Positions 3,014 through 59,677 of a DNA stretch of 64,000 nucleotides are shown here, piece after piece. Made by a program: the position numbers and the translations under genes. This DNA comes from Pirellulales bacterium (GTDB lineage: Bacteria > Planctomycetota > Planctomycetia > Pirellulales > Thermoguttaceae), in assembly GCA_020846145.1 (NCBI GenBank), contig JADLEL010000219.1, positions 62,001 through 126,000 on the forward strand, given 5' to 3'. Under the pieces are notes generated by a model, which was not told where the DNA came from, did no database searches, and saw only the letters and a list, made by a program, of their open reading frames with translations. Each line of letters begins with the position of its first letter. The first letter of the stretch is position 1.

Positions 3014-4747
3014 CTATAAAGCGCTCAGACCGGCGTTTTTGTACATCCAAAAGGGGCCGATGACCTTCGCGCCGATATCCATGCGCACGTCATATTGAAC
3101 GCCCCACTCCCCGGCCGCCAGGGCGCTCGACCGGAGTTTCGGCCGCTGCTCGCCGTGGAGGTATCCGACCTCGATCCCCCTTTGTTTCGAGGAAAACAGG
3201 AATCGGGAATTCGGTTCCGCCGGATAACGCACGTCGTTGACCGGATCATCATCGAGCGGATCGGCTACCCCGCGGTCCAGCCGCGCCTCGCCGTAAACCG
3301 AAATTCCCACGTTGCCCCCGACGGAGATTTTCCGCGCGATTTCGGCCGCCTCGAGCGCCTTGGCCCACGCGACGACGATGATATCGGCCTGGGCGCCGCG
3401 GAGAATACCGGCATCATCTTCCTGCGCGGCCATCGCGGCCCGGTCCGCCTGAAGCGCTTGAAGCGACAACAGATTGTCGGCCAGGTTCCCGCGATCGGCG
3501 TGGAAAATGGGCGTTTCGTCGCTCATGTTCGCGTTGGCCAAGAGCATCGAGAAAACCAGATCCCCGCGGAGCCGGGCGGCCGCTCGGCCGAGCAACTGCG
3601 GGACTTGAATCAGGGCCGACAGATCGTCGTCCAGAAAATCCTGTTCATCGACGATGAAGGACTTTGCGAACCGCGCGATTTTGTACTCTTCCTTTTTCGA
3701 AAAATCCAACTCGGAAAGGTTCGCTCGGCCGCCGCGGGGGAGCGGTTCGAGCTTCTCGCTATCCTGCATGATGAACCGCTCATTCTTTTTGTAATTCGGG
3801 ACCGCCGCGACATAGCAGAATTGCTGGGTAACGTCGGCTTCCGCGGCCCAGCCGAGGAGCAAATTTGCGTTGATACTAGCCGCGAATAGTTGTTGCACCG
3901 CATCATATTCGACCGCATCGCGGAAGCAGTCGATCGGCTCTTTCGAGGCGTTCAAGCCGGCGGCCTCGAGCGCGCCGCGGACCAAGCTCCGCATCGAAAG
4001 ATGATCGGCAATCGCGGCCGCGCGGTTGCCGAGTTCCTCGGTCTGGGCGGGCAGGCCGCTTCGAAGGCGGAGCGCGTTTGAAAGCACTTCGCGGGTAACG
4101 AGGGATGGAGTGTGAATGGCGGGTGCCATAATGGAAGTTTCCTTTCGGGAATCAAGATTGGGGGTTGATGAAAAATCGACCGCGCCGGACTCCCGCGTCT
4201 TCGCGCCGGGGTCCGCGCCGATCGGCACGAGCGAACCTTCCTTGGGCGTCCATTCGGTTGCCACCCGCAAGGTTCGTTTGTTCGCGGAAAAATTGCGGCC
4301 GGAAATGGTTTGCTGACGGCCGGCGGGAATGTCGATCGCGGCGACTACATGGTAGCCTACCGATACGTCGGTTAAGTGCCCCTGCGCGACTTTGTTCCAA
4401 GCGGCGTCGGCCCGCTTGTCGCCGGCGGTGAAGTAAAGGCGGCCGACGATCTGGCCGGCCTCGCGGCGGATGTTGCGGATCGAGCCGAGCACGGAATCGA
4501 GGTCGGCCCGATCGTGGGTTGCCAGGAGCGGCATCTGCTGGGGAAGTTGCGCCCCGCCGGCCAGCAAGACCTCCTCCACCACTTCGCGGCGGTCGGCCGC
4601 CCAAACCTCCGCCGGCGTTTCGGTAGCCAGCACGGCCTCGATCGACCGGGCCGCCATATCGACGGTCGCAGCGCGAATGCCGAAAAGCCGGGTGGGGATG
4701 TAATCGCGGGTCACTAACGCAGTTTCCGGGATCGTTTTTGATTGCAT
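3014..4747 (-). CDS. Prohead protease fused to Mu gpT-like major capsid protein
   Basis: This 577-residue protein joins two head functions. Residues 1-190 resemble the HK97 prohead protease (ClpP-like): the catalytic His is probably His78 in PLLATHDR and the Ser is Ser129 in LTDVSVGY. From about residue 207 the chain resembles Mu-type major capsid proteins (gpT family), with KKNERFIMQDSEKLEPLPRG and a C-terminal region ending GPFWMYKNAG. The start at 4747 has AAGGAGGAGGAAGAG just upstream. An internal Met207 (base 4129) is preceded by AAAGGA, so a capsid-only product may be made from the same message. The 131 residues upstream of 4747 in this frame are rejected because they overlap the previous gene. 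Family calls are confident; dual translation is inference. Confidence 0.85.
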   Translation of the reverse strand: MQSKTIPETALVTRDYIPTRLFGIRAATVDMAARSIEAVLATETPAEVWAADRREVVEEVLLAGGAQLPQQMPLLATHDRADLDSVLGSIRNIRREAGQIVGRLYFTAGDKRADAAWNKVAQGHLTDVSVGYHVVAAIDIPAGRQQTISGRNFSANKRTLRVATEWTPKEGSLVPIGADPGAKTRESGAVDFSSTPNLDSRKETSIMAPAIHTPSLVTREVLSNALRLRSGLPAQTEELGNRAAAIADHLSMRSLVRGALEAAGLNASKEPIDCFRDAVEYDAVQQLFAASINANLLLGWAAEADVTQQFCYVAAVPNYKKNERFIMQDSEKLEPLPRGGRANLSELDFSKKEEYKIARFAKSFIVDEQDFLDDDLSALIQVPQLLGRAAARLRGDLVFSMLLANANMSDETPIFHADRGNLADNLLSLQALQADRAAMAAQEDDAGILRGAQADIIVVAWAKALEAAEIARKISVGGNVGISVYGEARLDRGVADPLDDDPVNDVRYPAEPNSRFLFSSKQRGIEVGYLHGEQRPKLRSSALAAGEWGVQYDVRMDIGAKVIGPFWMYKNAGLSAL

Positions 4748-5295
4748 CGCTCTTCCTCCTCCTTTCGCTCTTTTTCGCGGGTCAGAATATTTCGGATTTC
4801 GGGCGGCAGGCCGCAATGTATGTAATCGTGGCCCGTGGTGGGATCGCCTCCAAACAATTGGGGGAACGCACCTGACACGATGCGCGGGTCGGCATGTTGG
4901 GCGTCGATCCAGCCGCGAAGTAGCGTCCGATGCTCGATTTCTAGCCGCTCCTCCTCGCGGCCATACTTTTCCCCGGCCTCGATATAAGTGGCCCAATTCT
5001 TTTGCCGGGCCGCAAGGTTTTTGTCCAGCGCGCTTTTGCGCTCCGCCACCTTCGCGCCCTCTGCTTCGAGCCGATCGAATTCGGCCAAAGCGAGCAAGTG
5101 AGCTTGAGCCATTTCGGAGGAAATTCCGAGCGACCGGCAAAGCAGAAGCGAGTTTTCCCGGTCGCCGGCCTGTGGATCATCGGCGCGACGCAAAATTTCA
5201 ACGTACTTTTTCCACAACGTGGGATCGTTTTTTTCATCAACAACGACTTTCGTGTTGATTTGCGCAACCAACGTCTTCGCGGTCTTTTTTGCCAT
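4714..5295 (-). CDS. Hypothetical coiled-coil phage protein, 193 aa
   Basis: The protein begins MAKKTAKTLVAQ with GAGGAG nine bases upstream. It is largely helical and charged (about residues 75-130), with a Gly-rich segment near residue 150 and a very basic end. Its last 34 bases overlap the start of the protease-capsid gene, implying translational coupling. The position just upstream of the protease-capsid gene would suit a scaffold or packaging accessory, but no family is recognised. Confidence 0.55.
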   Translation of the reverse strand: MAKKTAKTLVAQINTKVVVDEKNDPTLWKKYVEILRRADDPQAGDRENSLLLCRSLGISSEMAQAHLLALAEFDRLEAEGAKVAERKSALDKNLAARQKNWATYIEAGEKYGREEERLEIEHRTLLRGWIDAQHADPRIVSGAFPQLFGGDPTTGHDYIHCGLPPEIRNILTREKERKEEEERCNQKRSRKLR

Positions 5296-13536: not shown

Positions 13537-15144
13537 TTATTTTTCTTCGATTTCCTTCCAGATATTTTTCAGCTTGCCGTCGGTGTCGAGTTCCTCCGGC
13601 GAACTGGTTATCGGTGGATGGGTTGTTGGAACGATCGTGCATTCATTTTGATCCGGCCAAACGCTCTTCATGGTGATGGTTTCTTCGCTCTCCTGCGGCC
13701 AAGGCGCTCGTCTGTAAGCTTCATGTTCCGTTTTCGATATGGGCCAATCGGAATACAGGGGAAACCAACCTTGAAATGCCGTTAGTCCGCTGAATCGATT
13801 GATCCACATCAGGCTCATTTGCGGATGGGAATTCATATTGAGAATGTCTTGGCTGTTGATTCGCGAAGCGGTGTATTCCGAGATGCCCACGCGAACATCA
13901 CCTTCACGGTCGCGGCAGGCGTATTGCGGATTAATTCGACCATTGCGAACGTCGTCGGGGGAAAGATCGTATTTGCGATCGTAATATCTCACTACGCCAG
14001 AGGTGTTGGAGATATAATTCATCATCCAAGGATCGCGTGCTCCGTACACCGATTTGGTGGCCGAGCAATTCATCACGATTTCCCGGAGATCCGGTCCGCC
14101 CGGCGGATTAAGTTGGCTCATGGTCTGATGAGCAAGGATGCAGCCCAATCCATAGGATCGCGCTTGGGCTAAGACGTTTTCGATGTTCTGACCTACCATT
14201 GCCTGAACTTCATCCATACAAGCAATAACTTTGGGAGCTTCACCATGTTCATCGTGATAGGCGATTGCCGCCATGAGTAAACTGTATAAGCCGAGTTTTG
14301 CGATCATCGAAACAGCGGCGACATCCATTGCACCAACGAGATAGAAATAGATGATTTGCTTTTTGCGGATAACTTCCGGCATGAAAATCGCGTTGTCTAA
14401 AGCCTTGTTATTCTCCAGGTCCCTGTTGGGAGATAGATTAAGTTGTTTGAAGTCCGCCAAAGATTCCGCGATAAATGCCAAATGCTTGGCGCTGCGCAGT
14501 TCCTCGTTATCGTCGGTCATTTCAGTGAGTATGGCAGTAAGGTCGCGGAAAGATTGAATCGGTTCCGGCAAAAACAGCGTCTTCCGTTTGGAACGCTTCG
14601 TTGGATGCTCTGATGAATTGGGAATCGTCTCCAGAATCGAACGCCGGAATACCGTGCGGGTCAAAATCGAAAACCAATCTCTTCCATACCCACTCCCATG
14701 ATGGAGATTCAACCCTTGCATATAGAGTCCCAGAATGTCGGGGAGCGACAATTGTTTTAGCAGTCGATTGTCCCAGGGATTGAAGACATAGGTAGAGCGA
14801 TGCGGCTTGTTCGTAAACCATTTGAAGGTGCGATTATGGCTTCGAGCGGTCGATTCCACGAAATGAAATAGTCCGGGGTCGCCCTTGCAATCGAAGATGA
14901 CAACGGGGCCTTCGTTGCGGTGAATCAATTGCAGAAGGTCGGTTTGCAGCCCCAAGGAAGTCTTGCCCGATCCCGTCGGGCCGATAATATGCTTGTGTTC
15001 GTATAAAAGGTCCGTATCCAAGAGTACCGGATAGCCTTGATGGTAGTGCCGTCCTTGGTAGATCGAGCGACTTTCCGCCGGATTCCGGCTCTTCATAAGC
15101 CGGTCGCAGATAGCCAACAAGGATCGTTTTTCAAATGATTTCAT
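13537..15144 (-). CDS. Type IV coupling protein (VirD4/TraG/TraD-like ATPase)
   Basis: This 535-residue ATPase has a Walker A at residues 55-63 (GPTGSGKTS), VVIFDCKGDPGLFHF, a Walker B with KVIACMDEVQAMVG (about residue 310), and the motif ILAHQTMSQL. This order is typical of TraD/TraG coupling proteins and their TraM-recognition domain, which bring DNA to a secretion channel. It lacks its own N-terminal membrane helices. The preceding gene encodes a polytopic membrane protein overlapping it by four bases, so the membrane part may be supplied in trans. No mating-channel genes are visible, so the element is probably mobilizable rather than self-transmissible. Confidence 0.85.
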   Translation of the reverse strand: MKSFEKRSLLAICDRLMKSRNPAESRSIYQGRHYHQGYPVLLDTDLLYEHKHIIGPTGSGKTSLGLQTDLLQLIHRNEGPVVIFDCKGDPGLFHFVESTARSHNRTFKWFTNKPHRSTYVFNPWDNRLLKQLSLPDILGLYMQGLNLHHGSGYGRDWFSILTRTVFRRSILETIPNSSEHPTKRSKRKTLFLPEPIQSFRDLTAILTEMTDDNEELRSAKHLAFIAESLADFKQLNLSPNRDLENNKALDNAIFMPEVIRKKQIIYFYLVGAMDVAAVSMIAKLGLYSLLMAAIAYHDEHGEAPKVIACMDEVQAMVGQNIENVLAQARSYGLGCILAHQTMSQLNPPGGPDLREIVMNCSATKSVYGARDPWMMNYISNTSGVVRYYDRKYDLSPDDVRNGRINPQYACRDREGDVRVGISEYTASRINSQDILNMNSHPQMSLMWINRFSGLTAFQGWFPLYSDWPISKTEHEAYRRAPWPQESEETITMKSVWPDQNECTIVPTTHPPITSSPEELDTDGKLKNIWKEIEEK

Positions 15145-26146: not shown

Positions 26147-27559
26147 ATGAGGCAGAAAAAGAAACCGCAAGATCCGGCGACGATTCCCTGGGAAGGCCGT
26201 GATGAAATGAATCTGGCCGAATTCCCGATCGCGGTCCTGGCCTCCCGCCCCGACAAGAATCTCAAAACGATTCGTTTCGAGGACCGTACCTGGGACAAGA
26301 GCCGCGACTGTTGGGTGCCTCGGCAACTGACGATTTCCGCCTCCGACCGCTATGGTCTGCCCACGGCACTGGACGATGAGGTGATTTTGGGACTCATTCA
26401 ACTGACCCGCGAGGCCGACTTCACGGATCGCAAAGTCTTCTTCAGCCGATATAGGCTCTTGAAAATCCTGGGCTGGCGATTGGAGGGCAAAAGTTACGCA
26501 CGCTTAGAAACTTCGCTCAAACGGTGGCTGGGCGTGACGTTCTATTATCATAATGCTTGGTGGGACAAGAAATCCCAATCCTGGGTGGACGAGAATTTTC
26601 ACTTATTGGAACAAGTGTTGTTTTACCATTCGCGGCAAAAGTCGCTTGCCAATCGGGAAGAACCGATGCTCTCGCTGTTCGTCTGGAACGAAGTCGTGTT
26701 TCGGAGTTTTCAGGCGGGTTATCTGAAACAGATCGATCTTTCGCTGTTCCGTCGGCTGAAAAGTCCGATTTCCAAAAGACTGTATCGGCATCTCGATAAG
26801 CGTTTTTATCACAAGCCGACTTGGGAATTCAATCTGCGGGAATTGGCCTGCGAACATATCGGATTGAGCCGTAGTTACGATACGGGACAACTCAAACGCA
26901 AACTCAAGCCGGCTATTGAAGAATTGGTGGAGGTCGGATATCTCCAACCGCTCGATGACCAAGAGCGGTTTCGTCGGCTAGGAAAAGGCGTTTGGCTTGT
27001 CGTATTCGCGCAAGCCGCGAAGAAGAATTTCGTCGATGCTCCCAAGGAAAAGAACGAAGAGGCAAAACGTCTGCTCCTCGCGCGCGGCGTCCATCCGGCG
27101 ACCGCCGATTCGCTGGCCGGAGAATATCCGATTAAAGAGATTCGACGGCGGATTTCCATCCTCGATTGGCTGGAGAAGAACGCCCTGAAAAATGCACCAA
27201 AAAACCCGGCAGGCTATCTGGTCCAATCCTTGCGGGAATCCTACGATCCCCCGGCAGGCTTTGGGGAGAATCAAATCGTCGGCGCAAGGAAAGGCAACCT
27301 CTCCCCAGCAAAACCCTCTCATCGCAAGCGGATAAGTCGGGAAACGAGAGATTCTGCCGTACGGCAATTCATCAATGCCTTAAAGCCTGAGGAACGGAAG
27401 CAATACGAAAAAGACGCCCTTCAAGCCGCCGATCCGTTTCTGGCCTCGACCTATCGCAATGCGGTCAAGGAACAATCGCCGCTTTTGGAGGAAGTATATT
27501 TGCAAGTCATTTTGGAACGATTCGTAACCGAAAAACTCATCGTCAAGAAAGGTTCGTGA
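26147..27559 (+). CDS. repA: Plasmid replication initiator protein A (RPA family)
   Basis: This 470-residue protein matches the RPA-type initiator family: GRDEMNLAEFPIAVLASRP, TIRFEDRTWDKSRDCWVPRQ, LTISASDRYGLPTALDDEVI, LGLIQLTREADF, then winged-helix segments LGWRLEGKSYARLETSLKRW and SPISKRLYRHLDKRFYHKP. The C-terminal third is variable. It should bind the iterons just upstream and open the origin. Together with ParA and the RHH protein it gives the element a plasmid-like maintenance module. Confidence 0.88.
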   Translation: MRQKKKPQDPATIPWEGRDEMNLAEFPIAVLASRPDKNLKTIRFEDRTWDKSRDCWVPRQLTISASDRYGLPTALDDEVILGLIQLTREADFTDRKVFFSRYRLLKILGWRLEGKSYARLETSLKRWLGVTFYYHNAWWDKKSQSWVDENFHLLEQVLFYHSRQKSLANREEPMLSLFVWNEVVFRSFQAGYLKQIDLSLFRRLKSPISKRLYRHLDKRFYHKPTWEFNLRELACEHIGLSRSYDTGQLKRKLKPAIEELVEVGYLQPLDDQERFRRLGKGVWLVVFAQAAKKNFVDAPKEKNEEAKRLLLARGVHPATADSLAGEYPIKEIRRRISILDWLEKNALKNAPKNPAGYLVQSLRESYDPPAGFGENQIVGARKGNLSPAKPSHRKRISRETRDSAVRQFINALKPEERKQYEKDALQAADPFLASTYRNAVKEQSPLLEEVYLQVILERFVTEKLIVKKGS

Positions 27560-27976: not shown

Positions 27977-27984
27977 TATAAAAT
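27977..27984 (+). promoter_or_regulatory. Possible -10 element before the large RNA
   Basis: TATAAAAT stands out in this otherwise mixed sequence, and the first RNA helix begins about 35 bases downstream. A matching -35 box is weak (TTAGTT at 27955-27960), so this is only a candidate promoter. Confidence 0.35.
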
Positions 27985-27989
27985 GTGAA

Positions 27990-29640
27990 ACGAAAGTGTG
28001 TTGCCTATGCTGTTTACCGCCGATAGGCCGGGCCAAGATGGCCACGGGCTGACGGCGGCAAAGATCATACAACACCATCCAAACGGTCGGCACACCCGGT
28101 AAACCTGAAACACCATTCAGGCTAAGGGAGCGGTATTAACCATCCGCTAGGTGCTGACCCGTAGAGCTGGATTCGCCGTGAGAGCGGCTCCTCCAGTTCG
28201 ATGGAGGCTCGTCGGAGTAATCCTGAAACTACATGACAGCGGGCTTTGTTTCCCCGATGCCTTTTTCAGAGTAATCCCGGCGTTCTATCCAATAGGCATA
28301 ATCTCGAAAAGGTTTTGAATGCGGGCGACATGGAAAAACTTCGATAAAGTTTTTTATTGAAGCCGTCTTGACTCAAAGCGGGTGCTTGACCGTCAGAGGA
28401 GGGGAAGGCATCGGAATTCGTCGAAAGTCGAATTCCGATGAATTTCCCTTTCTCCAGTCGAAAATCCCGTCCAGGGGGTTCGGGCTGTGGGTTTTGCAAA
28501 GAACCCTGCTCGTTCAACCTCGGCTTGTGCGGGGAGTTTCCAGCTTGGCGACAAGCGGAATCGGGCAAATCGATCATGCCCGGCGTTGAAGGTAAATACT
28601 TCACGGCGAAAAGCTCAACCGCGAAAGGGGCGAAAGCCCTTACAAGTGAATTCGATCGGAGACGGTGCCGAACCGTGAAAACCTGTTGCTGAAGGATAAG
28701 AGAGACGCTTCTGTATTCTGTCCTCTGAAATTGCCGAGAATTCTCCCTGCGGGAATTTTTCGGCAGAAACTATGCCGGGCCGGGAGGCGCGGACATACGG
28801 CAACAGGCCCGTGGATTAACCTCCACTAGCGACGTGAACGATCGAATGAAGGTCAAGGATAACATGGGAACCGCTGCGGTGGCCGGTGTGGTTACCGGTG
28901 CTTGGCTTTGATCGGCCAAGTGACAGCATCGGCAAGGAAGTTGTTGCGGATTTCTCCGTAAGGGAAATACGTACCGAACATGCTTGCCGTGAAATACCGT
29001 AGCGGGGGAGCGTGGCGCAAGTAGAAGCGGCGGAAACGCCGGCGATGGGACTGCAAGGCAGTGGTCCGGTCGTCTGAATGCTCGGGTGGTGCCGGGCATC
29101 TTCGCCGAATAGGCCGGCGCGAAAGCGTTGGCATGGGCGGCGGAAAATCAGCGACGAAAGCGCCGACGGGTTTTCTTTATCGCGGTCATGGTACGGAATT
29201 GCAGCAATGCAAGGGCGTCGATGACCGCAAAAATCCGTTTGGGTGGTGGTCCGGGGACGGGCTTTTGCTTTGTACGGTCCTGGGCACGGCGGAGTATTTT
29301 TTCAAGATACTTCGTTATACCTGGGACCGTGCATGGAAAATGCCTGACACCGGCTTCGGGAGAGGATTTTCTTTTGTGCCTTGCACGGATGCCCTGGCGG
29401 GCGTTCTTGCAAGGAAAACGCATGGGTGACTGAAGGGAAGTTGTTCTGTAATTGCATCTTTCTACGTTGTGGTTTTGCAAGGAACGCCTATGGATTGGCG
29501 GCGGGCAACTGTGGAATACAGCTTGCACCGCCGCCAATCTTCCACTGCGGTGGAATGGGTGCGTTTCTGGAAAATTATTCCTGAAGGTTCGGGCTTTTCG
29601 GGGGATTTGTGCCACAAAACAAATCCTCCCACCCATAACT
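27990..29640 (+). ncRNA. Giant structured RNA, about 1.65 kb
   Basis: No frame here looks coding, but the + strand is crowded with helices. Examples: 28017-28022/28053-28058; 28085-28093/28151-28159 enclosing hairpins 28104-28121 and 28129-28148; a perfect 12-bp hairpin 28409-28440; 28562-28582; 28776-28781/28806-28811; 28901-28920; 28930-28936/28983-28989; 29078-29099; 29182-29189/29221-29228 enclosing 29199-29212; 29379-29385/29408-29414; 29493-29539 (12 perfect pairs plus inner pairs); 29540-29555; 29600-29629. GNRA tetraloops close 28543-28556 (GCGA), 28626-28641, 29028-29041 and 29113-29132 (all GAAA), 29199-29212 (GCAA) and an inner hairpin near 28953-28957 (GTAA); these loops fix the + strand. 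The ends are approximate. I found no reverse transcriptase and no group II domain V. It runs into the start of a basic protein gene. Confidence 0.75.
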
Positions 29641-29647
29641 TGGATTG

Positions 29648-30367
29648 ATGGAGTATTTATGCGAAACGATAAGCCTTGAAGGATTCGTGCAATTGCTGGC
29701 CTGCAACTTTCTGCCGCATGGTTACTGGTTCTATGTGACCGGGTGGATACCCGACGGCAAAGACTGCCGGCGGATCGATGCAAAGCTGATCGAAAAATAT
29801 GGTGTGTCCCTGAGCCGGGCCGCTCGCTGCCGTCGCAAGCAACTAGGCTGTGCGAACCTCCGTTATCTGCGCTGGGGGCGTTTCTTCGTGCTGATCGCCA
29901 CGCATGGGAAGCATCGGTTTTTCGAGGAAGAGGGGGAGTCCATCCGGGACATTCGGCGTGTGCCACTCAAGATTGCTGGCTATTCAATCAGCTTTCGACC
30001 GGGCAACAAGCAACGCTCCGGCAAGGCCGATGAGAAGGGACATTCCCACATTGCCATCGGTCTGGAGCGATTCAAGGAATTGCAGGCTTGGTTTGCGGAA
30101 CTTGCCGCACGGCAGTCAACTGCCCGGCTTGGACTTGAATTCTATCGTTTCCCCTATGAGCCGTACGCCCCGATCCGCCGTCAAATGCTCCGTCTGCTGC
30201 GGATCGTCAATGAGGTTCGCAAACGCAAAGGCTTCGACACGCTTCCTTACGAGGTTTTGCCCCTGCGGCGGCGCGTCGTCAAACCGTTCGGATTGCCCCA
30301 AAAACTCCCGGTAAAACAAAAGGATAACAAGATCACCCCGAACGAAGGCGGAGATAACCCGCCGTAG
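29648..30367 (+). CDS. Basic protein of unknown family downstream of giant RNA, 239 aa
   Basis: ATG 29648 is chosen over the adjacent TTG. The protein is strongly basic and begins MEYLCETISLEGFVQLLACN, then HGYWFYVTGWIPDGKDCRRI, RAARCRRKQLGCANLRYL, RWGRFFVLIATHGKHRFFEE and PLKIAGYSISFRPGNKQRSG, with a helical C-terminus ending in a Lys/Pro-rich tail. I recognise no domain with certainty. The ribosome site is weak (TTGGA), and the last big hairpin of the RNA (29600-29629) ends 18 bases before the start, so translation may depend on RNA folding. The charge and position suggest it binds the upstream RNA; this is inference. Confidence 0.7.
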   Translation: MEYLCETISLEGFVQLLACNFLPHGYWFYVTGWIPDGKDCRRIDAKLIEKYGVSLSRAARCRRKQLGCANLRYLRWGRFFVLIATHGKHRFFEEEGESIRDIRRVPLKIAGYSISFRPGNKQRSGKADEKGHSHIAIGLERFKELQAWFAELAARQSTARLGLEFYRFPYEPYAPIRRQMLRLLRIVNEVRKRKGFDTLPYEVLPLRRRVVKPFGLPQKLPVKQKDNKITPNEGGDNPP

Positions 30368-53315: not shown

Positions 53316-54520
53316 CAGAGTTCTCCACAAAAGGCTCGTTGGATGAGCGAATCGAAAAGCCTATTGGACTCGTCCGATATGGCACGCAACCGCTCTTGAA
53401 GCTGGCTATGTTGTGTCACGGCCTTGGCGAACCGGTGCTGCAATGGCAAAGGGGGCACTGGAATGCGCAGGGATTTGAGCTTGATTCCCGTTAGATGGGG
53501 AATTGTAGCTTGTGAGATATGCTGAAGGATCGAACCGCCTTTCATCAATGCCCAAATGAGGTTCGAAATGTATTCGGGAACGGCTATATCTGGGCGTGGA
53601 CGTACTCGATGAAGTGACTTCTGAAAATAGCACTCCGATAGCTCGCCTCGCCAAATGGCCGTTTGTCCGACACCAGCCCCACCTTCACAGATCAACACGT
53701 CGCCCGGCTCAAGCCGAAATTCTTCTCGATGCTGGTCATCAAAATCCATCTGCCAAACGCTTGAAAGATCAATCTTGCCCCATTGAACGTTGATATTTCG
53801 CATGTAGGGGCGCGAGTGCATTCCGGTCTGTTGTTTGGCATCCAGCATCTTCCCAAGGCGCGAATCGCACACTTGGCTGAACTCCATCACGGGCCAACCG
53901 CGAGAATTGCAGTTCAAATCACCGAATAGATCGTAGAATAGACTGGGAACCAGATCGGCCGATATTTTCACCGTCTGCCGGCGCTTGCGGCGGATGGCGT
54001 CGACATGGTCCAAAATCGCTGCTATCCGCTTCTGCTCATGTAGCGGCGGAAGAGGAATTTTTTGTGATAGATAGAGATTTAGATTCAAATTACGTAGGCC
54101 ACTTGTTGTGCTGTTGCATCGCTGTAGTTCAGACTTGCCCTCATCGGATGTAAGCCAATAATAGAGCCACCGCCAATCGGCCTTGCGACTATCGGTACGA
54201 AGACGAAGCATGAAATTTGAAAAGTAATAACTGTGTCCGTTACCTGGATCAACAAAAGGTGCACATTTGCCAATATGGGCGGCACTACCACTCGACTTTG
54301 TAACAAGTATATCGCCAGTTTTTAAAAGACGACGTTCAACATCATTCCTTGGAATGAGCCGCCACGCTGGCTCATCAAGGATCATAGTGCTATCTTGTAT
54401 ATTGGTACTACGGAGAACTGGCGAGCCGGTAGTTTCGTTAGCATCTTCGCCCCAGGTTCCGCTATCTGCAAGGGAGAGAACATCTCGAAGTTGCTCCTTA
54501 GGTATTTGTGTCACCATCAT
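53315..54520 (-). CDS. hsdS: Type I restriction system specificity subunit
   Basis: The 401-residue protein has two target-recognition halves separated and followed by conserved helical spacers: [20 protein letters not shown] at the end of the first and [20 protein letters not shown] at the end of the second. It sets the DNA sequence recognised by the complex. The ATG overlaps the hsdM stop by four bases (ATGA), which fixes the start at 54520. Confidence 0.9.
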
Positions 54521-56082
54521 TTCAGGATTCCCTCCAACTTGCAAATATCGGAGGCAATTTCTTTTTCGAGATCTTTGAGTCGGCTAAGAATTACTTTGGG
54601 CGGATCGTGTTTAGCTTCTTCGTAAACGTGTTCTTTGTATCGCCCGATGGAAAGGTCATATTCTTGGGCGGCGATTTCATCACGGGTAACGAAAAATGCT
54701 CGGGTCGTTCGATCATCAAATTGCTTTTTATTGCGTCCGGCGGCGAAAACTTGCCATTTTTCCACTGCATCGGGCAGATCGCTGTTGGGACGGCCGTCTT
54801 TATCCTTTTCAGGGAGGGGAGTTCGCTTGTCGTCGAGGCTGAAGCCGTCGCGTTCCACGTCATAATAGAAAACCTTGTCGGTCTTGCCGCCCTTGGCGAA
54901 AACAAGCACGGCGGTCGAAACGCCCGCATAGGGTTTGAAGACGCCGGCGGGAAGTGAAATGACCGCTTCAAGCTGGTTGTCGTCCACAAGCAACTGCCGA
55001 AGACTTCGGTGGGCATTCGAGGAGCCGAATAAAACACCGTCGGGCACGATCACGGCGCAACGCCCGCCGGTTTTGAGCATCCGCAGCATGAGGATGAGAA
55101 ACAAGAGTTCCGTTTTCTTGGTTTTCACCTTACCGGTGAGCGAAGAATGCACATCGCCGAAATCGAGACTGCCCTTGAAAGGTGGATTGGCGAGAATCAC
55201 GTCGAAATAATTCTGGGCCAGTTTGGGGAACTTTTCGGGCATGGCGTTCGCTAGCGTATCGCAATAATGGATGTTGGGATTTTCCAGCCCGTGGAGGATC
55301 AGATTCATCGACGCGATGCGGAGCATGGTGGCGTCGAAATCGAATCCATAGAACATATTGGATTGAACATGCCGGAGTTCGTCGGGATTGAGCTTGTCGG
55401 CTGAGTAGGTAGTGTTCTTGTTGCCATCCTCGTCTTCATGAACGATGAGGCCGGCTTTGGACGTGTTTGTCCGATAGATGTATTCCAAAGCGCCCGCCAA
55501 GAATCCGCCCGTGCCGCAAGCGGGATCGCCGATGATGTCGGTGGGCTTGGGGGCAATAAGTTCGACCATCATCTTGATGATGTGCCGGGGAGTGCGGAAC
55601 TGTCCGTTGATGCCGGCGGTAGTGAGCTTGCCGAGCAAGTATTCGTAAAGATCGCCCTTGCTGTCGCTGTCTTCGATAGGGAGCTTGTCAACCATGCCCA
55701 CGGCGGAAACCAAGAGGCTTGGCTTTTGGATGAGGCATTGGGCGTCGGCCATGTATTCGCTAAAGGTCGAGCCGGAATTGCCCACGGTGCGGAAGTGGGG
55801 GAAAACTTTGTTGCGGACAATATCCAGCATCTCGGCGGCTGGCTTCAGTTTGAACTGGTTCCAACGGAGTTCCTGCTCCTTGGGGCCGAAAATCATTTTG
55901 ACTTGCGACTTGCCTTTGAGGCGTTTCGCCTTTCGCTCGTTGATGTTTTCGCGGATGTCGAGCATCCGGGAGAACATCAGGAAGGAAATCTGTTCGATGA
56001 CGGTGAGCGGATTCGTGATTCCGCCGGTCCAAAATTCTTCCCAAAGTCTGTCCACGTCCTGCCTCAATTTGCCGGTAATCAT
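54517..56082 (-). CDS. hsdM: Type I restriction system adenine methyltransferase subunit
   Basis: This 521-residue N6-adenine methylase has [19 protein letters not shown] (AdoMet binding) and [20 protein letters not shown] (catalytic NPPF). The N-terminal helical domain ([20 protein letters not shown]) contacts HsdS. It is the first gene of hsdM-hsdS-accessory; hsdR lies 95 bases upstream on the same strand. Confidence 0.95.
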
Positions 56083-56177
56083 GCTGTTGGTCCAATCCCT
56101 GGAGTGAAGTACGGATATGTGAAGGGTAGTTGATTAGGGAATACGGTCTGATTGCAGCCCGCTTTTAGGAATATGGT

Positions 56178-59100
56178 TTAGTTCGCCGTCTCGCCGGCGG
56201 TATTGGAAAACGATTCGACAAGGGCGATAAGCTCCTCGGCCTGAGTTTCGTCGGGGAAAACACCATCGAGTCCGTCTTTATCGAGCGCCGTGAACGGCTG
56301 CTCGTAAAGCCGATCCAACTCAATGATACCAAAATTACGGATGTGGTTTTTCAGCAAGTCGAGGAATCGGAGTTGGGTGGAATTCAGTTTATACTGTTGA
56401 GCGAAAGCGGTGAATTTCGCGTTGACGGCATCAGCATCAAGGCCGATGATACTGCGGATGGCCGTCGCCAAGTTGCCGGCTGTTTCGGGATAATATTCCA
56501 AAAGGTCGGTCAAATCGAGGTCCGGCTCTTGAGCAAGGACCAAAGCCGTAATCTTATCGAGTTCCTCGGTGCTGACCGGCTGGCCGGCCTTGATTTTTTG
56601 CAAGGGGGGTGTGGAATCGATCAGGTCATTAAGCACTTTTTGGACCCGATTCCGGTATTCAATCAACTCCAACCCGGCAAGCTTCGGATGATACTGCTTT
56701 CGCTCGATAAGGCTCTCCTCTTCGGCAATGTCTAAGACCTTGGGCGGGATCGGCGTTCCACCGCCGGCTCCACCATGATAGTGAATAATGCCGCGAAGAT
56801 CCTGGCGGATTTCCTCGATGGCTTCCGCGGTGGGGGCCGTCCAAAAGGCTCCGCTTTTCACGCGATCGATGGCGGCGATTTTCTCCTTGACCGGATTGAG
56901 GTTGATTTGCAGTTTCGACACTCGCTCCACCATCTCGTCGCGGAGATCCTCCAGGCGGGAAGCCCCCTTGAGGATGGCGGTTTGCAGTCGGCAACAAAGC
57001 ATGTCAAATTCATAAGCCGGCACTCGGCCTGAAATATTCCGCCACTGCATGAGCGGAGCGATGACCGTTTGCAAAAGGCTTTTGGTCGCCGCGTCGAATT
57101 GCTTGATCATGCCGTCCTGCTGAACGGTTTTGACTTCCCGCCATTTATCGCGTATGGAAATCGCCGAGTCGGGCAAATCTCGAACGTCCTTCAGTAGCAG
57201 ATTACATGCCAAATCGAAGGATGGGACATTTTGACTTGCTTGGGCCGCTTCCGCCAAACGAATGCGGTCCTCGAAAAGAACCTGTTGGATAGACTTGCTA
57301 GTGGAATTGGTCTCGGCTTCTTTGTAATGCTCGTCGAAATATTCAAAATTGCCCCAGTGGTCGAAAATCAGGAACTTCTTCTTGTTTTTGCCGGGGCCGA
57401 AAAGGTTTTCGCAAAGGCGGGTGCCTCGTCCGATCATCTGCCAGAACTTAATGTAGGAATAGACAGGTTTGGCAAACACAAGGTTGACGATTTCCGGGAT
57501 ATCGATGCCGGTATCGAGCATATCGACGGAGATGCCGATGGTGAGTTCGGGATTCTTGCCCTCTCCCTTCAAGTCGTCGATCAGTTCCTCGGCTCGCGGA
57601 TCGTAATTGTCGATCACTCGACAGAAGTTGCCGCCATACTGCGGGTACATTTCATCGAAAAGCGACTGCAACAAAATGGCATGGTTGTGATTGCGGGCGA
57701 AAATGATCGATTTCCCCAGCCGGCTCCCGTCCTCTATTTTGATGCCGTTTTCCATCAAGTTCTTCAGGATCAAGCGGTTGGTGGGTTTGTTGAAAACGAA
57801 TTTATCGACTTGTTGCTGTTCATACTGGATTGCCTCGGGTTCGATTTCGTCTTCTTCAAGCCTTCGCTGCTGTTCCGGGGTCATTTGCTTGTATTTAATG
57901 CCTTCGCGAAGGAATGGCGTGGTAAAAGTCTGGACTTCAAAGGGCGCAAGGAATCCATCGGAAACGGCCTGTTCATAGCTATAATACGAAGTGGGATCAC
58001 TATCGCCGCAATCAAACATTTTGTAAGTATTGTGATGAATCATGTCCTTTCGGGGCGTTGCGGTCAGGCCAACCTGCAAAGCATCGAAATACAGAAATAA
58101 GTCACGATAGCGGTTATAAATGCTGCGGTGGGACTCGTCGGCGATAATGAGATCGAAGAATCCGGCATCGAATGTTTCGAAACACTTCATCATCGCCGGA
58201 TAGGTGGCGAGATAGATACGGTTTTCGCGTTCTTTGTACGTTTGCGAATTCACATAGACGCGAGGCTCATCCTTCATATATTTCTTGAAGGCGTTATTTG
58301 CTTGTTTTCTGAGTTCCCTGCGGTCGCAAAGAAATAGAATCCGTTTTGCCCAGCCGGCTCGGCTAAGGGCTTCGCAGATTGAAATGGCGACACGGGTTTT
58401 TCCCGTTCCCGTCGCTTGGACCAAGAGGGCTTTGCGGCGGCGGTTTCGGAACTGCTCTAAAACTCGGGTGATTGCTTCGTTTTGATATAATCGCCCGGCA
58501 ATCTCCTTGTCGGGAATGATTGTGGAAAGTGTCTCTTGCTTGGATCGCTTGTGAATTAAGTAGCGAAGGCTGTCTTTGGAGAAATAACCGTAAATCTTCC
58601 GGGGTGGGTAGCCAAAAGCATCATCCCAAATCCAGATATCAAAGCCATTGGTGTAAAAGATGACGGGGCGCTGACCATGTTCCGTCTCAAGGCCATCGGC
58701 ATAGCATTTGGCCTGGGTGCGGCCTGCTTCGGGATCTATGGAAGTTTTCTTTGCTTCGATAACTGCCAATGGCTTAAGATTAGAGTCGTATAGCACATAG
58801 TCGGCAAAGCCCTGGCCGCTATCCGTCGGCTGGTTTTGGACGGGAACCTCTTTACCGACTTCCTCGGTGGATTGTTTCGCGGGCGCAATTTGCCAACCGG
58901 CATCGGCCAATTGCGTGTCGATGAGAAGGAGCCGCGTTTCTTCTTCGTTGAATGCGAGAACATTCGCGGGATATTTTGCGGCATTGAGCATTGCCCGCAA
59001 TTCTTCCTCGGAAGCCTTGGCCTGAACTGCCGCCTCGCGGGCTTTCGCCAAGTCTTCAAGAAGCTTCTGCATTTGTGCTTCTTGAGAGGCTAGACGCTTG

Positions 59101-59573
59101 AGAATAGCAACTTTCTCCTGCTTCAATTCCGATTTGGATTTGCCGCAGACTTTTTCAGGTGTCGGTTCTTGATACTCAGGAATAGAGCCAGCATCTTTTC
59201 CCGAGAAAGTCAGATATAACCACTGCCCCAGCCGGTGTGATTCCTTGAGAAGCCAGAGAACGCTGTTGGTTTGGCCTTGAGCACCGTGAACCGCCTTGTT
59301 GCCTTGGATACGGATGGCATGAAGGACGTTCACGACCACACGCGGAACTGAATCGGTGAAACACGCCTGATCCAGAAGCTCCATCTGCGTGGGCTGAACG
59401 GGCTTCGGGAGACTTAGCTTCGCATAGACAAAAATGGTAAGTTCTTCGGCGAAAGTGCGAAGTTTGACCAAGGCGCTGACCGGATCGGTATGAGCATATT
59501 GCTCGGCAAAACCTGCCAAGGATGCAAGTTCCGTCCAATCGGGGCGCAGAAATTCAAAATTCAGGGATTGCAC
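56178..59573 (-). CDS. hsdR: Type I restriction endonuclease subunit
   Basis: I start this protein at GTG 59573, giving 1131 residues, because GGGAGG lies seven bases upstream; an ATG at 59660 has no ribosome site and lies only about six bases past the start site of the sigma54 promoter. Domains: a DUF4145-like head (VQSLNFEFLRPDWTELASLA), a nuclease domain (DYVLYDSNLKPLAVIEAKK with Asp and E-x-K), then a helicase with ATGTGKTRVAISICEAL and DLIIADESHRSIYNRYRD, motif VI in FWQMIGRGTRLCE, and a C-terminal helical domain that joins the methylase. It cuts unmodified DNA after translocation. Confidence 0.92.
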   Translation of the reverse strand: MQSLNFEFLRPDWTELASLAGFAEQYAHTDPVSALVKLRTFAEELTIFVYAKLSLPKPVQPTQMELLDQACFTDSVPRVVVNVLHAIRIQGNKAVHGAQGQTNSVLWLLKESHRLGQWLYLTFSGKDAGSIPEYQEPTPEKVCGKSKSELKQEKVAILKRLASQEAQMQKLLEDLAKAREAAVQAKASEEELRAMLNAAKYPANVLAFNEEETRLLLIDTQLADAGWQIAPAKQSTEEVGKEVPVQNQPTDSGQGFADYVLYDSNLKPLAVIEAKKTSIDPEAGRTQAKCYADGLETEHGQRPVIFYTNGFDIWIWDDAFGYPPRKIYGYFSKDSLRYLIHKRSKQETLSTIIPDKEIAGRLYQNEAITRVLEQFRNRRRKALLVQATGTGKTRVAISICEALSRAGWAKRILFLCDRRELRKQANNAFKKYMKDEPRVYVNSQTYKERENRIYLATYPAMMKCFETFDAGFFDLIIADESHRSIYNRYRDLFLYFDALQVGLTATPRKDMIHHNTYKMFDCGDSDPTSYYSYEQAVSDGFLAPFEVQTFTTPFLREGIKYKQMTPEQQRRLEEDEIEPEAIQYEQQQVDKFVFNKPTNRLILKNLMENGIKIEDGSRLGKSIIFARNHNHAILLQSLFDEMYPQYGGNFCRVIDNYDPRAEELIDDLKGEGKNPELTIGISVDMLDTGIDIPEIVNLVFAKPVYSYIKFWQMIGRGTRLCENLFGPGKNKKKFLIFDHWGNFEYFDEHYKEAETNSTSKSIQQVLFEDRIRLAEAAQASQNVPSFDLACNLLLKDVRDLPDSAISIRDKWREVKTVQQDGMIKQFDAATKSLLQTVIAPLMQWRNISGRVPAYEFDMLCCRLQTAILKGASRLEDLRDEMVERVSKLQINLNPVKEKIAAIDRVKSGAFWTAPTAEAIEEIRQDLRGIIHYHGGAGGGTPIPPKVLDIAEEESLIERKQYHPKLAGLELIEYRNRVQKVLNDLIDSTPPLQKIKAGQPVSTEELDKITALVLAQEPDLDLTDLLEYYPETAGNLATAIRSIIGLDADAVNAKFTAFAQQYKLNSTQLRFLDLLKNHIRNFGIIELDRLYEQPFTALDKDGLDGVFPDETQAEELIALVESFSNTAGETAN

Positions 59574-59677
59574 CACAAAACCTCCCACCGAATCGTTTTG
59601 GCGATTCGGCAAAAACCATCCCTGAACTATTTGGCGGAGTAAAAAATCGCGTTCGCTCATACGGAACGCTTATCTAC

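Follow-up and report, generated by a model that had tools for sequence, protein, structure and literature searches.

A probable circularly permuted group II ribozyme between repA and an acpG-like gene on a planctomycete plasmid-like element

We analysed a stretch of 64,000 nucleotides (hereafter the window) from contig JADLEL010000219.1 of a Pirellulales bacterium. On its plus strand, a gene encoding a replication initiator (repA) is followed by a large structured RNA and by a gene encoding a small basic protein (Table 1). The initial annotation had proposed such an RNA between repA and a basic protein gene on a plasmid-like element. The RNA is borne out, with a folding signal above chance, and its position next to repA on a plasmid-like element is also right. 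Three minus-strand regions of the window (3017-5140, 13540-15144 and 54520-59660) encode a phage capsid-type protein (PF25209), a type IV coupling protein and type I restriction genes. The contig is possibly a phage-plasmid or a conjugative element; the ends of this 155-kb contig do not overlap.

Table 1. Features of the repA-RNA-acpG locus, in window positions. CP, circularly permuted.
Feature	Positions	Strand	Evidence and remarks
repA (PF10134 replication initiator)	26147-27559	+	Pfam E 1e-16; conserved neighbour
CP group II-like RNA, conserved core and 3' hairpin	28076-29250	+	Homologue searches; 79 covarying pairs
Closing stems of the conserved element	28078-28086/29138-29145 and 28157-28162/29131-29136	+	
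P1 hairpin	28104-28121	+	Loop 28111-28115 pairs with 29087-29091 (pseudoknot to 3' segment)
P2 hairpin	28129-28148	+	Loop 28138-28142 pairs with D2 loop 28889-28893 (pseudoknot)
Domain V (D5)	28164-28199	+	GAGC triad, GAGA tetraloop, 2-nt bulge; alignment and 5 covarying pairs; RF00029 on homologues
Domain VI (D6), extended	28202-28291	+	Bulged branch-point A at 28287, 7th nt from 3' splice site; 7 covarying pairs
Linker, 3' splice site (AAU/) to 5' splice site	28294-28322	+	Predicted 29-nt RNA circle; site consensus as in PMC8637638
IBS1 (GAAUGC)	28317-28322	+	6/6 pairing with EBS1; covariation at variable positions
5' splice site GGGCGA and domain I (D1)	28323-28866	+	Base stem 28329-28332/28863-28866, 4/4 pairs covary
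EBS1 (GUAUUC), D1 hairpin loop	28713-28718	+	U28712 just before can pair with A28294 (delta-delta')
Domain II (D2)	28871-29005	+	Base stem 28871-28880/28996-29005, 6/10 pairs covary
J2/3 purine-rich joiner, GGGAG consensus	29006-29013	+	Alignment; between D2 and D3
Domain III (D3)	29014-29129	+	3/5 base-stem pairs covary; AGUA/GAA loop-E-like motif near base
Conserved 3' hairpin, positional equivalent of D4	29201-29247	+	20 bp, 4 covarying pairs
acpG-like gene	29648-30367	+	239 aa, ATG start within TTG-started ORF 29645; hhalign to Thermus AcpG

The plus strand of 28150-29145 has a minimum free energy of -433 kcal/mol (z -7.2 against dinucleotide shuffles), and the fold of the minus strand has a z of -4.4. 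Hairpins of at least 4 bp closed by GNRA loops number 12 on the plus strand and 2 on the minus strand, where mononucleotide shuffles lead one to expect 1.55. The six plus-strand GNRA loops initially reported thus understated a genuine excess. The extent needs revision, as the ~1.65 kb first delimited (27977-29640) are indeed occupied by a large structured RNA, but the conserved element spans ~28076-29250 and the sequence beyond ~29250 is variable between homologues. Among the helices then highlighted, those at 28409-28440 and 28930-28989 are present but are lineage-specific insertions, found in 10-20% of homologues (the latter lies inside D2, where few relatives carry one), and those at 29379-29414 and 29493-29539 are situated in the variable 3' part, outside the conserved element. 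The conserved core of the homologous RNAs measures ~1.0-1.5 kb (1.02-1.49 kb, median 1.17 kb). Scanned with Rfam at gathering and at permissive (E<=10) thresholds, the window gave no useful match, and none to GOLLD, ROOL or OLE. There was also no blastn match in plasmid and phage collections.

Homologues were searched with the RNA and with the downstream protein. In 60 related genomes, blastn matches to the RNA were scattered yet colinear and fell in other families of the order. Relatives of the protein were found in 14 of 60 related genomes, in 7 of 294 further genomes from the whole phylum (one match is marginal), in 117 GTDB contigs (80 of which were fetched), and on planctomycete and cyanobacterial plasmids; a search of IMG/VR with the protein gave no match. 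In a single-sequence nhmmer search with the window RNA, 81 of the 90 extracted loci had a match upstream of the protein. A profile was then applied to 88 non-redundant acpG-like genes preceded by 600 bp or more of sequence; 87 of them have the RNA upstream, on the same strand and within 6 kb, and none has it on the opposite strand. The sole exception (L058) encodes the most divergent protein. The median distance from the end of the profile to acpG is 337 bp. Plasmids on which RNA and gene adjoin include pK2D_1 of Planctomycetes bacterium K2D (L142), pLBX of Leptolyngbya boryana (L143) and one from Calothrix. Culturable carriers are K2D, L. boryana, Aeoliella straminimaris (L117) and Tautonia sociabilis (L101). 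As an independent check, a DNA pattern covering D6 with the 3' splice site was detected in 12 of the 60 relatives (0 in the control), and all 12 genomes also encode acpG. Matches in metagenome-assembled genomes (MAGs) of Acidobacteria, Hydrogenedentes, Thermoleophilia, Calditrichota and Bdellovibrionales may be binning errors and were left out of the count of new phyla. Extra or truncated RNA copies with no acpG found alongside occur on a Calothrix plasmid (L144:2568-2981) and at L059:5846-6375 and G050:C287:4856-4880.

We aligned 78 near-complete RNAs by sequence alone and folded them afterwards. Covariation was tested with our own R-scape-style script, not R-scape, using a G-test with average-product correction and nulls simulated on the inferred tree. 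The significance test makes no use of the fold. This revealed 79 covarying pairs at E<0.05. All but one of them (78) belong to the predicted fold, and the exception is Watson-Crick as well; the agreement with the fold is partly circular because the folding program rewards covariation too. The check suggested with the initial annotation, i.e. whether substitutions in homologues break the helices, has a clear answer in these pairs: substitutions preserve them. From the alignment, the domains follow the order P1-P2-D5-D6-linker-D1-D2-D3-3' hairpin, and this permuted order is constant across Planctomycetota and cyanobacterial plasmids. The pseudoknot between the P1 loop and the 3' segment is 98% canonical over 69 RNAs (z 12 against partner shuffles), and the one between the P2 and D2 loops is 92-95% canonical (z 13-14 against partner shuffles). 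The purine-rich J2/3 and the loop E at the D3 base were read from the consensus and the window sequence. The branch A of D6 was found in 78/78 RNAs. Both D6 strands carry a near-invariant GAGUAAUCC (28215-28223 and 28269-28278), giving a symmetric internal loop, GAGUAAUCC/GAGUAAUCC.

The initial annotation had found neither a reverse transcriptase nor a domain V. The window indeed has no reverse transcriptase beside the RNA. Yet D5 is there, at the 5' end, which is not where the expectation of a normal intron would have one look. Its consensus is GAGC-nGGAU-GCnnn-GAGA-gnnGC-Un-GUCCnG-nUC, i.e. an AGC triad, five pairs, a UN two-nucleotide bulge, an upper stem and a tetraloop. The Rfam model of group II D5-D6 (RF00029) scored above its gathering threshold in 10 of the 27 homologous loci scanned (L064, L107, L138, L142, L061, L069, L070, L073, L091 and L097). 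In L064, a scan restricted to the RNA region gives E 9e-8, and the alignment extends over the 3' strand of D6 and its CUAUCC-AU 3' splice site. The Rfam models of D1-D4 do not match the element. In the window itself RF00029 stays below threshold, probably because its D5 is a 36-nt variant with two extra nucleotides on the 5' strand. The same variant is found in four other elements (L065, L047, L098 and L100), and the window copy retains nearly all other conserved positions; for these reasons we rejected the idea that the two nucleotides make it inactive. This copy looks intact and functional because it departs from the consensus at only 2 of 205 highly conserved columns (203 kept), where the median is 3.

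D5 is also a site of insertion. At an identical position within it, L063 (2553-4960) and L133 (219-2640) carry a canonical group II intron with reverse transcriptase, maturase and HNH genes, and joining the flanks of the intron restores a perfect D5. The 3' ends of such an intron occupy the same D5 site in L094 (544-640) and L122 (7-133). An intron is thus nested at the catalytic domain of the ribozyme in at least four loci, the last two being counted by the intron 3' end.

The splice sites are equally conserved. The 3' site is NAU in 78/78 RNAs and nearly all have the GGGCG 5' site. At the three variable nucleotides each of EBS1 and IBS1, 144 of 234 positions are paired, whereas 5000 shuffles gave 96.7 on average and never more than 122, and this register ranks first among the 175 tested. 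IBS1 differs from element to element, with 42 different triplets. In 63/78 RNAs, the first nucleotide of the circle can pair with the one just before EBS1.

The downstream protein is indeed basic, as initially described (pI 10.0). Pfam assigns it to no family. A known protein linked to circularly permuted (CP) group II RNAs is AcpG, TTHC007 (PMC8637638), and comparing the planctomycete family with eleven Thermus AcpGs in hhalign gave a probability of 91.7, an E of 7.7e-7 and a score of 50.9 over 179 columns, while controls (shuffled, reversed and RepA) scored at most 21.4. By profile comparison, the protein is a distant AcpG. Its structure is predicted with confidence (pLDDT 93.4). The model has no significant match in a PDB fold search, and neither this search nor Pfam found a nuclease or reverse transcriptase domain. 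One acpG-like gene has a single in-frame TGA stop (G061:C1:367414-368046). Insertions between the RNA and acpG were observed in L138 (4210-5811, with a reverse-transcriptase-like ORF on the minus strand), in L099 (960-4660) and in L108 (960-4660); the one in L099 is about 5 kb and contains a phage replication O-like gene.

The association with repA is frequent. Of 60 non-redundant loci, 27 have a RepA-like ORF upstream, on the same strand and at most 2.5 kb away (43 of 72 in a looser count that includes duplicates), and ParA-like genes are nearby in 21 loci. Many planctomycete plasmid-like contigs share the order repA-RNA-acpG, and ParA is often found on its other side. Where the sequence is long enough, more than half of the loci lack a RepA-like ORF within this distance, and some copies (L106, L057) appear to be chromosomal. 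In Thermus, too, the copies are on small plasmids.

Altogether, the element is very probably a CP group II ribozyme, followed directly by a partner gene of the AcpG family. This rare class of ribozymes, once called T-large RNA, was described by Roth et al. 2021 (PMC8637638). These authors gave NU and GGGCG as the splice sites and a linker circle and a branched RNA as the products of the reaction, and they proposed the pseudoknots P1 loop/3' segment and P2 loop/D2 loop as unique to these RNAs, in addition to a third one between the D3 loop and D1 (PMC8637638). We assign the element to this class because its D5-D6-D1-D2-D3 order, its NU and GGGCG sites and its two covarying pseudoknots match that architecture. 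The early view of a large RNA folding in three dimensions, akin to group I/II introns, was therefore sound, but that of a new class of giant RNA was not, since this architecture is already described (PMC8637638). The canonical D1-D6 order with outer 5' GUGYG and 3' AY was also considered as a candidate, but D5-D6 precede D1.

An unrelated new class of giant ornate RNA, similar to GOLLD, ROOL or OLE and resembling group II domains by convergence, would explain why the window has no Rfam match, why the RNA exceeds the average CP group II size and why it has little similarity to Thermus CP RNA. Still, we regard it as very improbable: RF00029 recognizes D5-D6 above threshold in 10 of 27 loci, the splice sites, branch A, EBS1-IBS1 and both CP-specific pseudoknots are present and covary where variable, and the linked protein is AcpG-like. 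The GOLLD, ROOL and OLE models themselves had no match at the gathering threshold in the window or in the scanned homologous loci. The element could otherwise be a canonical group II intron, decayed or misassembled, with domains shuffled by recombination and no function. Group II introns recombine and the window lacks an intron-encoded protein, but such wreckage is extremely improbable given the constancy of the permuted order across Planctomycetota and cyanobacterial plasmids, the strong covariation, the conserved positions kept in the window copy and the constant acpG partner.

If the CP group II ribozyme acts like others of its class (PMC8637638), the first step would be an attack by the branch A (28287) on the 5' splice site, just ahead of G28323. 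The 3' end released at 28322 would then attack the 3' splice site after U28293, and this second step would close a 29-nt RNA circle (28294-28322). The product left would be a T-shaped branched RNA, with the 5' part (D5-D6) joined 2'-5' to D1. AcpG, small, basic and encoded just downstream on the same strand, might bind and stabilise this RNA, a more speculative step. By gene neighbourhood, the pair could serve the carrier plasmid in replication control or maintenance. Such a role is proposed because the RNA-acpG pair so often follows repA. A plasmid-linked function is plausible, but other copies are chromosomal or lack repA. That repA, CP RNA and acpG form a replication module, with plasmid copy number or maintenance set by self-branching of the transcript or by the circle, is a tentative and rather doubtful idea; if true, it would give CP group II RNAs their first biological role.

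Two other readings accept the group II architecture. The RNA could mainly be a cis-acting leader regulating acpG, or repA-acpG, with splicing chemistry secondary or lost. It is always upstream of acpG on the same strand, at a median distance of 337 bp, and a sigma-70 consensus scan between repA and acpG gave no promoter match. Yet the residues of catalysis are conserved beyond what a leader fold needs, and the linker and the EBS1-IBS1 pairing would be superfluous in a mere leader, which makes this option unlikely. We give slightly less credence still to a trans-acting ribonucleoprotein in which the branched RNA and AcpG reverse-splice into, or cleave, other nucleic acids, in defence or plasmid competition. 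Group II chemistry is reversible, IBS1 is variable and the RNA is linked to plasmids, but EBS1 tracks the IBS1 of its own element, as a cis reaction would predict, and the protein has no detected nuclease or reverse transcriptase domain. A trans-acting CP RNA was already speculated upon in PMC8637638.

CP group II ribozymes are catalytically unusual, making branched RNA and small circles, and their biological role was stated as not known in 2021 (PMC8637638). The clade described here adds two phyla that the main text of that paper does not name, a fixed RNA-acpG order and a frequent position after plasmid repA. The near-invariant RNA-acpG pair argues for joint action, on which the 2021 authors could not tell (PMC8637638), and this pairing offers a first handle on the purpose of the class. 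The diversity of the clade suffices for strong covariation, and a covariance model could be built from these RNAs. No such model of CP group II ribozymes seems to exist in Rfam 15, which gave no match on the reference plasmid pTT8.

GOLLD, ROOL and OLE are likewise large, rich in GNRA loops and in some cases on mobile elements, but their architecture differs. Canonical group II introns share D5-D6, which fit the family model in the homologues mentioned above, whereas here the order is permuted, with no intron-encoded protein and no exons to join. AcpG of Thermus thermophilus pTT8 (TTHC007) matches the planctomycete protein colinearly over nearly the full length of the profile, is of similar size and is also linked to a CP group II RNA. 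Identity is ~20%, the orientation is fixed here, and the CopG-type partner gene present beside most Thermus copies is absent.

With published CP group II RNAs (PMC8637638) the clade has in common the D5-D6-D1-D2-D3 order, the NU and GGGCG sites around a short linker, the UN bulge in most D5s, the bulged A and internal loop in D6, the EBS1 loop pairing with the linker, the P1-3' and P2-D2 pseudoknots, the purine-rich J2/3, the loop E at the D3 base and an AcpG-type gene nearby, on plasmids and chromosomes. Sequence similarity to Thermus CP RNA is very weak, though colinear (best profile E 0.0078, others in the noise). Among the papers searched, no other one dealt with this RNA class; Data S1 of PMC8637638 may already list members from Planctomycetota or Cyanobacteria. 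Several traits set the clade apart from the published class (PMC8637638): the core is longer (1.02-1.49 kb against an average of ~0.9 kb), predicted circles range more widely (12-189 nt against 15-86), and acpG invariably follows the RNA on the same strand, while published members differ in its position. Planctomycetota and Cyanobacteria, the host phyla here, do not appear in the main text of PMC8637638, where the hosts named are Deinococcus-Thermus, Firmicutes and Proteobacteria. We thus file these RNAs as a new, divergent clade of a known kind, in two phyla absent from that main text.
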